A DNA stretch of 38,303 nucleotides from Lamprocystis purpurea DSM 4197 (GTDB lineage: Bacteria > Pseudomonadota > Gammaproteobacteria > Chromatiales > Chromatiaceae). The DNA lies in the NCBI RefSeq assembly GCF_000379525.1, contig NZ_KB902362.1, positions 1 to 38,303 of the forward strand. Reading direction: 5' to 3'. The notes under the pieces are model-generated. The model was not told where the DNA came from, did not search any database, and worked only from the letters and a program-made list of their open reading frames with translations. The position numbers and the translations under genes are program-made. Position 1 is the first letter of the stretch, and each line of letters begins with the position of its first letter. Shown one piece after another: positions 1,836 through 28,078 of the stretch.

Positions 1836-1867
1836 TGTAGTGCGGGGTTCGGGCTCAGGTCTTGTAA

Positions 1868-2497
1868 TCACCCATGTGTGAATGCAAGACCCGACTGCAC
1901 TCTACGAGACGCGGCAGCGTCGTCAATTCCTGGTTCCACAGCAAACCCGGTGACAAATAACTCCCGGTAGGCGAGTTGCCGAGCGACGGCGCTATTGCCC
2001 AAAGCCATGTACAGTTCATGTGGCGACAGGATGCCGTTTGGTGCACCAAGAGCGTGATGCCGATCGCTCGACCAAGGATACTCCGCCGGGCCTTGATCAC
2101 GGTTCCGGCCACGGGACATCGTAGGGTGGACAAGCGCAGCGCAGTCCACCAGCGGCGGCGCGGGATTCGGTGGACTGCGCTAGCGCTTGTCCACCCTACG
2201 GCCGGAACGATGATCAAGGCCCTCCGCCGGGTCGGCGACCATGGCCGCCCGGACCGGGTTCATCTCGATGTAACATTGGCACAACAGGAGAGACGTCTCG
2301 GCCTGCACCGGGGAGGATTTGTACCTGCTGTCCCAGAGGGTTCCCGTGCGCCGGTCGCTGTGGTTGATGTATGGCACGTACCGGCGCCCGACGGCGATAA
2401 TGACCCGCGAATAGGCATGGTCGTCCTGTTCACCGAAGAAGCACGGCTCACGATTATTCGTCCCGTAGGATGGGTGTTTAGTCCCGCCAGCGAGCAC
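1868..2497 (-). pseudogene. REP-associated (IS200-like, Y1) transposase pseudogene, interrupted by a palindromic element
   Basis: On the minus strand the frame carries hallmark pieces of REP-associated tyrosine transposases: NNREPCFFGEQDD, then RRYVPYINHSDRRTGTLWDS, RYKSSPVQAETSLLL, YIEMNPVRAAMVADPAE, and after an interruption YPWSSDRHHALGAPNGI with a C-terminal tail. Two lesions are visible. First, the segment between GEQDDHAY and GRRYV, which in the family holds the HUH metal-binding motif (consensus TNHVHLL), is missing, about 50 codons. Second, a 133 bp palindromic element sits between codons for PAE and YPWSS. Removing the element and one copy of the duplicated target rejoins the family consensus in frame. 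The N-terminus before NNREPC is also not recognisable. The gene is inactive; order of events is unknown. Confidence 0.85.
2089..2221 (+). mobile_element. 133-bp palindromic non-autonomous element, copy 1, with target-site duplication
   Basis: Termini GGCCTTGATCA (2089-2099) and TGATCAAGGCC (2211-2221) are perfect inverted repeats. Inside are longer arms, GTAGGGTGGACAAGCG on the left and CGCTTGTCCACCCTAC on the right, so most of the element folds on itself. The flanks carry a direct repeat, CTCCGCCGG at 2081-2089 and again at 2222-2230 (8 bases plus one ambiguous base), i.e. a target-site duplication. The element carries no gene. A second copy lies at 27910-28078 in the opposite orientation. 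An 8-9 base duplication points to mobilisation in trans by a DDE-type transposase; which one is not in the window. Confidence 0.85.
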
Positions 2498-5243: not shown

Positions 5244-5337
5244 TATAGCCTTCGTACCTGATATCCAGACAGACCCTTGGTGTAGGGGCGGGTTTGAAAC
5301 CCGCCCCTACGTCCGGTTATCAGGTCCGAATGCTATA
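5244..5337 (+). mobile_element. 94-bp MITE-like element, copy A
   Basis: The element begins TATAGCCTTCG and ends CGAATGCTATA, giving imperfect terminal inverted repeats of about 25 bases. The centre is a perfect palindrome with arms GTAGGGGCGGGTTT and AAACCCGCCCCTAC around one G. Further copies lie at 7067, 10828, 24542, 33795 and 35547. It carries no gene. It adjoins the broken edge of the remnant ending at 5231. Confidence 0.85.
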
Positions 5338-27909: not shown

Positions 27910-28078
27910 GGCCTTGGTCATCATTTCGTACTTCGAGCCCGTCTGGACCTCGGTCATCGGTCCGGCCGTAGGGTGGACAAGCGACAGCGCAGTCCACCGA
28001 ATCCCGCGTCGTCCCTGGTGGACTGCGTTGCGCTTGTCCAGCCTTGTATGCCGCGTGGACGGAGCCAAGACCAAGGCC
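27910..28078 (-). mobile_element. Palindromic non-autonomous element, copy 2 (169 bp)
   Basis: Read on the minus strand it aligns along its length with the element at 2089-2221: ends GGCCTTGGTC and GACCAAGGCC, inner arms around TGGACAAGCGCAACGCAGTC and ACTGCGCTGTCGCTTGTCCA, and CCCTACGGCCGGACCGATGA. It has an additional 36 bases near one end, flanked by direct copies of GATGACC. Flanks GGTTCTTC (27902-27909) and GGTTATTG (28079-28086) agree at six of eight positions, a likely decayed target duplication. Confidence 0.75.

Follow-up and report, generated by a model that had tools for sequence, protein, structure and literature searches.

MITEAba12 and ISAba12 (PMC6382973) form a described pair in which a short, non-coding element has inverted ends common to a full-length insertion sequence (IS), with constant 9-bp duplications in 40% of copies according to the available text. 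The GTAG and CGTC REPs and the REPINs, as far as the available parts of PMC2817692 and PMC3733652 describe them, consist of a tag followed by an imperfect palindrome and often occur as inverted pairs. For the CGTC repeats, the available text of PMC3733652 gives no associated transposase and leaves the mode of movement open. The same text describes REP dimers of A. variabilis and H. neapolitanus that are regularly embedded in a longer palindrome, as is the case here; no duplication or transposase is named for them in that part, and their outer sequences are different.

The window analysed here is a 38,303-bp stretch of DNA from Lamprocystis purpurea DSM 4197, a Chromatiaceae purple sulfur bacterium which by kinship belongs to the same genus as Ca. 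Thiodictyon syntrophicum. It contains a 133-bp element that is short, non-coding and bounded by terminal inverted repeats, the features by which a MITE is recognised. Like MITEAba12, it shares these ends with a full-length IS and is duplicated at its target in part of the copies, here over 8 bp. Unlike MITEAba12, one kind of end occurs here with many palindromic cargoes, and the IS protein belongs to a family listed as of unknown function. The cargo has the tag-plus-palindrome form of the REPs, and two cargo kinds surround RAYT genes, as with RAYT-linked REPs. In contrast to RAYT-moved REPs, the termini of the mobile unit lie beyond the REPs and match those of a DDE-like IS, and the unit has an 8-bp duplication. 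We consider it probable that the 133-bp element is a MITE which is not autonomous and which a DDE-type IS mobilises in trans, with PF19936 (DUF6399) as the putative transposase. Since MITE-IS pairs are already known, only the combination of a DUF-family IS with MITEs carrying exchangeable REP pairs appears to be new, as judged by published papers rather than by ISfinder.

The 133-bp insertion and its target site

Comparison of ends and copies places the MITE, with a cargo here termed type A, at 2089..2221 on the plus strand. It is flanked by two copies of an 8-bp target duplication, CTCCGCCG (2081..2088 and 2222..2229). A preliminary description of this DNA had given the duplication as 8-9 bases; eight are retained, as the G that looks like a ninth base in the left copy already belongs to the element, of which it is base 1. 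The termini are perfect inverted repeats over 11 bp (GGCCTTGATCA/TGATCAAGGCC) and near-perfect over ~22 bp, with the left terminal stretch GGCCTTGATCACGGTTCCGGCC at 2089..2110 (plus strand) and the right one, GGCCTTGATCATCGTTCCGGCC when read inward, at 2200..2221 (minus strand). When 133 + 8 bp are removed, the minus strand reads through the rejoined flanks in frame as ADPAEYPWSSDRHHALG, which reproduces the reconstruction proposed earlier.

Natural empty sites were sought among relatives, for which 11 loci were fetched and six compared. Five of the six (from four genomes) are gap-free across a single target copy, with identities of 90.5% over 221 bp for L404 and 70-73% for L407, L411, L409 and L413; the sixth, L405, stops four bases beyond the target copy. 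The insertion with its exact ends is thus confirmed.

The interrupted gene is a RAYT relic on the minus strand. Its N-terminal side (2230..2497) lacks the HUH region and matches the RAYT family NF047646 with E 3.1e-6 and 27 bits, against a family cut-off of 80 bits. The C-terminal side (1855..2088) has no family match on its own and is assigned by the in-frame join. The N-terminal HUH motif (NHVHLL/NHIHLL) is present in the homologues L404, L407 and L409 and absent from the RAYT of the window, so that the relic was probably dead before the insertion or was inactivated separately. The earlier view of a broken REP-type transposase therefore holds as regards the in-frame interruption, but the gene is a relic without its HUH motif. 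A gene for an Rpn-type PD-(D/E)XK nuclease (PF12784), at 903-1835, adjoins the insertion. A gene of the same family lies within a 1199-bp element of another locus (L199, 4121-5319) that has GGCCTTGATC ends and a 7/8 duplication, and such ends may therefore carry Rpn genes as a further cargo.

Within the MITE, a REP-type repeat consisting of GTAG plus a palindrome (GTAGGGTGGACAAGCGCAGCGCAGTCCACC) is located at 2121..2150 (plus strand), with the architecture given in the available Table 1 of PMC2817692, and a second one lies in inverted orientation at 2169..2199 (minus strand). The type-A repeat is close in form to the Enterobacter sakazakii RAYT REP GTAGGGtGGGTAAGCGcAGCGCACCCaCC of the same available text. 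These arms had earlier been likened to an ordinary intergenic repeat; their REP nature and the exchangeable interiors had been missed. The inverted pair of GTAG-tagged palindromes, together with the position inside a RAYT gene, could be read as a REPIN or BIME moved by a RAYT, the outer ends being mere flanking sequence. We assign this reading a negligible probability: the duplications sit exactly at the outer ends and not at the REPs, the same ends enclose unrelated interiors as well as a 1.9-kb IS, and, according to the available text of PMC2817692, neither terminal inverted repeats nor larger duplications occur in the known members of IS200/IS605. For the insertion at 2089..2221 itself, the duplications at the outer ends refute REPIN/RAYT movement.

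A second, decayed type-A copy is present in the window at 27946..28078 (plus strand), with a duplication of 6/8 if the alternative left end at 27910 is taken. A search of the host genome with the 133-bp query, of which 40 of 403 candidate matches were scored, revealed an identical copy elsewhere with a duplication of its own, GTATCGCG. The 11-base end GGCCTTGATCA occurs 209 times in the host genome, compared to 0 for the reversed sequence. Thirty fetched host loci contain 28 two-ended elements, 26 of them with a type-A interior. The flanking duplication is 8/8 in eight of the 28 and 7/8 or better in ten, far above the controls (2/756 for mismatched flank pairs and 7/1792 for shifted ends at 7/8 or better), although the duplication-giving right end was preferred where several were possible, a freedom that the controls lacked; the other 18 are without a 7/8 duplication. 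Part of the training set for the model of the 22-bp end consisted of elements later found with the same model, some of them chosen for their duplication; most duplications lie outside it. Duplications at constant ends, empty sites and the identical copy all support the earlier proposal that this repeat moves as a transposon. A different conserved repeat, which is longer and has two inward-facing GTAGGGTGGATAAG arms at its centre, was observed at several host places, among them C1:136685 and C2:56825.

A full-length element with the same ends and its DUF6399 protein

A full-length IS with the same ends, for which the earlier description had proposed to look, is present in the host genome at C45:1916-3833. 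This 1918-bp element is bordered by GCGCATTG on both sides and supplies the partner in the same genome by which a MITE is commonly recognised. It contains a single ORF of 590 aa which matches PF19936 (DUF6399; E 5.7e-58) and has weak N-terminal helix-turn-helix matches. The host genome has five DUF6399 matches, and 38 of 194 genomes of the host family are positive. The gene is multi-copy: equally scoring matches number 19 in G209 and 12 in Ca. Thiodictyon syntrophicum Cad16T (G007). Three annotated plasmid records in RefSeq name the feature a DUF6399 domain-containing protein and not a transposase, and among the papers searched none mentions DUF6399.

We compared 81 DUF6399 loci, a number from which three repeats had been removed and in which at least three more places are counted twice. 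Both ends were found in 38 of these, at a spacing of 1.78-1.96 kb. Duplications flank 25 of the 38 (20 at 8/8, three at 9/9 and two at 7/8), with end pairing having favoured duplicated pairs and one 8/8 case (L309) using an outer end 42 bp past the usual one; 13 of the 38 show no duplication. No pair of ends was seen in 43 of the 81 loci, including that of the best Magnetococcales DUF6399 protein (L353); many of the 43 are fragmentary or cut off by the end of a contig. In L309/L333 (the same place) and L337, the DUF6399 IS is nested in or lies beside elements with like ends.

In an alignment of seven DUF6399 sequences that spans Chromatiaceae, Magnetococcales, Desulfobacteraceae and one cyanobacterium, four acidic residues are invariant, D84, D138, D158 and E410 (numbering of L358), and the conserved D, D and E are also invariant in a second alignment of 11 sequences. 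There are 272 residues between D138 and E410, a spacing which we take to be reminiscent of those DDE enzymes in which a large helical segment is inserted. A PDB sequence search with DUF6399 returned no relative under E 0.01, and Pfam gave a weak helix-turn-helix (HTH_Tnp_1, best 0.0029) and no DDE domain. DUF6399 is thus a candidate DDE transposase by virtue of its invariant acidic residues and the behaviour of the element, not of its fold. Together with the same-ended IS, these residues favour the earlier suggestion that a DDE-type transposase, and not the broken RAYT, moved the repeat. A distant DUF6399 relative was also observed on a contig classed as viral (L417, IMGVR_UViG_3300002092_000058).

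In the proposed mechanism, the DUF6399 enzyme would recognise ~22-bp ends of the form GGCCTTGATCATCGTT(C/T)CGGCC, make a staggered target cut of 8 bp (sometimes 9 bp) and act in trans on MITEs that share the IS ends. Both the catalytic role of DUF6399 and its action on MITEs are put forward from sequence comparison. The IS1595 family is likewise characterised by 8-bp duplications and GG ends, and has a different transposase domain. IS1595-family genes occur in the host, where one copy has roughly similar ends, GGCTCAATATGG(A/G)TTCCGGAC, and movement of the MITE by such a transposase was the first guess. However, in none of 31 IS1595 loci, which are part of the matches, does GGCCTTGATC form a facing pair around the gene (PF12762); a few have single end-like sequences that point away. 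Furthermore, G007 has 468 end matches yet no PF12762 match. We therefore regard an IS1595 mover as very improbable, and a PF12762 gene between GGCCTTGATC ends was discarded as a candidate in 31 of 31 loci. A CRISPR-like regular repeat array lies directly beside an IS1595-type element in the host (L032, G000:C14:57563-61057) and adjoins a masked stretch.

The link between DUF6399 and the MITE ends was further assessed by co-occurrence over the 194 host-family genomes. Two or more ends were found in 29 of 38 genomes with DUF6399, compared to 21 of 156 without it (Fisher p 1.2e-13, kinship uncorrected), a comparison that is partly circular as one IS itself brings two ends. Twenty or more ends, a number beyond what a few IS copies can supply, were found in 15 of 38 versus 5 of 156 (p 1.4e-8, kinship uncorrected). 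Reversed-pattern controls gave five matches over the listed genomes. Eight of the 27 host-family genomes with ten or more ends have no DUF6399. Among 20 genomes reached via end-pattern loci, nine have DUF6399 and 11 have none.

A second end pattern, which favoured TTGTTC, was used to follow variation in the ends. In G000 and G007, 74 of 74 matches read TTGATC or TTGGTC, while TTGTTC ends account for 4/4 in G030, 8/8 in G176, 1/1 in G209 and 32/35 in G163. Three of the four TTGTTC ends of G030 are on type-A MITEs and one is at a DUF6399 gene. Many IS copies of G209, which is of the same genus as G030, end in TTGATC, and hence the end variants do not follow genus strictly. Moreover, 12 of the 15 type-A copies of G030 have no duplication. 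The co-variation of TTGTTC is at most weakly indicative of an IS-MITE link.

Exchangeable interiors and REP cargo

Interiors were surveyed in 750 kb from three host contigs and in other host loci. In the 750 kb, the same ends with a duplicated target enclose type B (124 bp, GTAGTCAGG type interior) and type C (135 bp, GTAGGGTCCGC interior); types D (151 bp, duplication 7/8) and E (159 bp, 8/8) were found in further host loci, so that the host genome has five interior kinds with duplications. A scan of GTDB genomes with the 22-bp end pattern yielded at least 103 stretches spanning Chromatiaceae, Magnetococcales, Desulfobacteraceae, Accumulibacter and others, and viral contigs contained no exact match for this pattern. 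The 103-locus set comprises 64 two-ended elements, half of which (32) have duplications of 7/8 or better and half (32) do not, compared to 11/4032 for mismatched and 16/4064 for shifted pairs. Taken together, the two sets comprise 92 elements, which shared 12-mers divide into 21 groups. In one group, whose 13 members come from Magnetococcales and some Desulfobacteraceae, nine have duplications; a ATTCCCGC...GCGGGAAT hairpin with a CGTC tag is present in L197, which represents this group. A literature search with the ten-base end sequence gave no related title among the matches listed.

The interiors were divided by the analyst into 24 cargo kinds (25 representatives, with the groups of L242 and L243 left out). 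By the criterion applied here, two opposed tagged hairpins are present in nine kinds, one in three and none in 12. The nine comprise type A and eight others, with L222 and L290 among them being without duplication; a shuffle test of the tagged hairpins (60 shuffles) was unconvincing for C (0.07), L222 (0.08) and the Thiohalocapsa kind (0.07).

Two of these cargoes also surround RAYT genes of the host. The RAYT on C69 (NF047646, 169 bits) is surrounded by nine copies of cargo C and that on C146 (103 bits) by eight copies of cargo E, while a third RAYT locus, C178, has one nearby copy of cargo F. Among 14 Y1_Tnp loci, the type-A repeat is near none and no RAYT is flanked by its exact form; the only B-type repeats lie ~1.4 kb from a 93-aa Y1_Tnp fragment (L047). 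As the same ends occur with varied palindromes, and C and E occur around RAYTs as well, it appears that not only RAYTs but also a DDE-type system moves REP pairs. The MITE interior would then be a passenger, an inverted REP pair of the kind mobilised by RAYT tyrosine transposases, and the same ends would have acquired REPs or other hairpin repeats that differ from host to host.

Alternatively, the palindromes may have arisen inside MITEs, with the free or RAYT-flanking REPs as their escaped descendants. Cargo copies in the 750 kb were tallied by whether they have both ends, one end or none. Type B occurs only with these ends (10/5/0 for each of B1 and B2), as an origin within MITEs would suggest, and types E (2/7/1) and D (2/0/1) were tallied alongside. 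In contrast, end-less copies outnumber both-ended ones for C (4/1/13), F (0/2/4) and G (2/8/19). Arrays of C and E at RAYT genes also speak against such an origin, as do REPs of the same architecture published for other bacteria (available text of PMC2817692). We thus consider an origin within MITEs unlikely, and infer that the REPs were captured by MITEs.

A 16-base type-A arm, allowing up to three mismatches, matches the host genome at 32 places with no end, six with one end and 15 with both, compared to six for its reversal. Free type-A repeats were rejected at seven of eight inspected end-less places, which proved to be a different, longer repeat; the eighth, on C2, is a single hairpin with a RAYT gene ~1.4 kb away. 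The G030 copies considered as core-only, free REPs were likewise rejected in three of 15 cases: with up to three mismatches allowed per end, these are MITEs with duplications of 8/8, 8/8 and 7/8, and the remaining 12 of the 15 are without duplication. A further GTAG repeat, type H (GTAGGGGCGGGTTTGAAACCCGCCC palindromes), occurs in the window at 5282, 7105, 10866, 24569, 33822 and 35584. It has 44 hits in the 750 kb, close pairs being counted twice, none of them near MITE ends.

Implications for the spread of REPs

DUF6399 proteins were seen in Chromatiaceae and also in Magnetococcales, Desulfobacteraceae and cyanobacteria. It is a tentative proposal, to which we give somewhat less than an even chance, that DUF6399 represents an unrecognised DDE IS family whose MITEs repeatedly capture the REP pairs circulating in their host. 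REPs are common in bacteria, and here REP pairs, including one CGTC-tagged repeat, are found inside 8-bp-duplicated elements for which a candidate enzyme can be named. This proposes for DUF6399, which Pfam lists without a function, a role open to testing, and suggests caution in that a REP at a new place may have arrived on another transposon. If the proposal is correct, REP families would owe their spread to two chemistries that are unrelated, namely single-strand transfer by RAYTs and transposition of the DDE type. The CGTC repeats, which are without a known dedicated transposase, would gain a vehicle, and the hairpin core may itself favour survival of the MITE.
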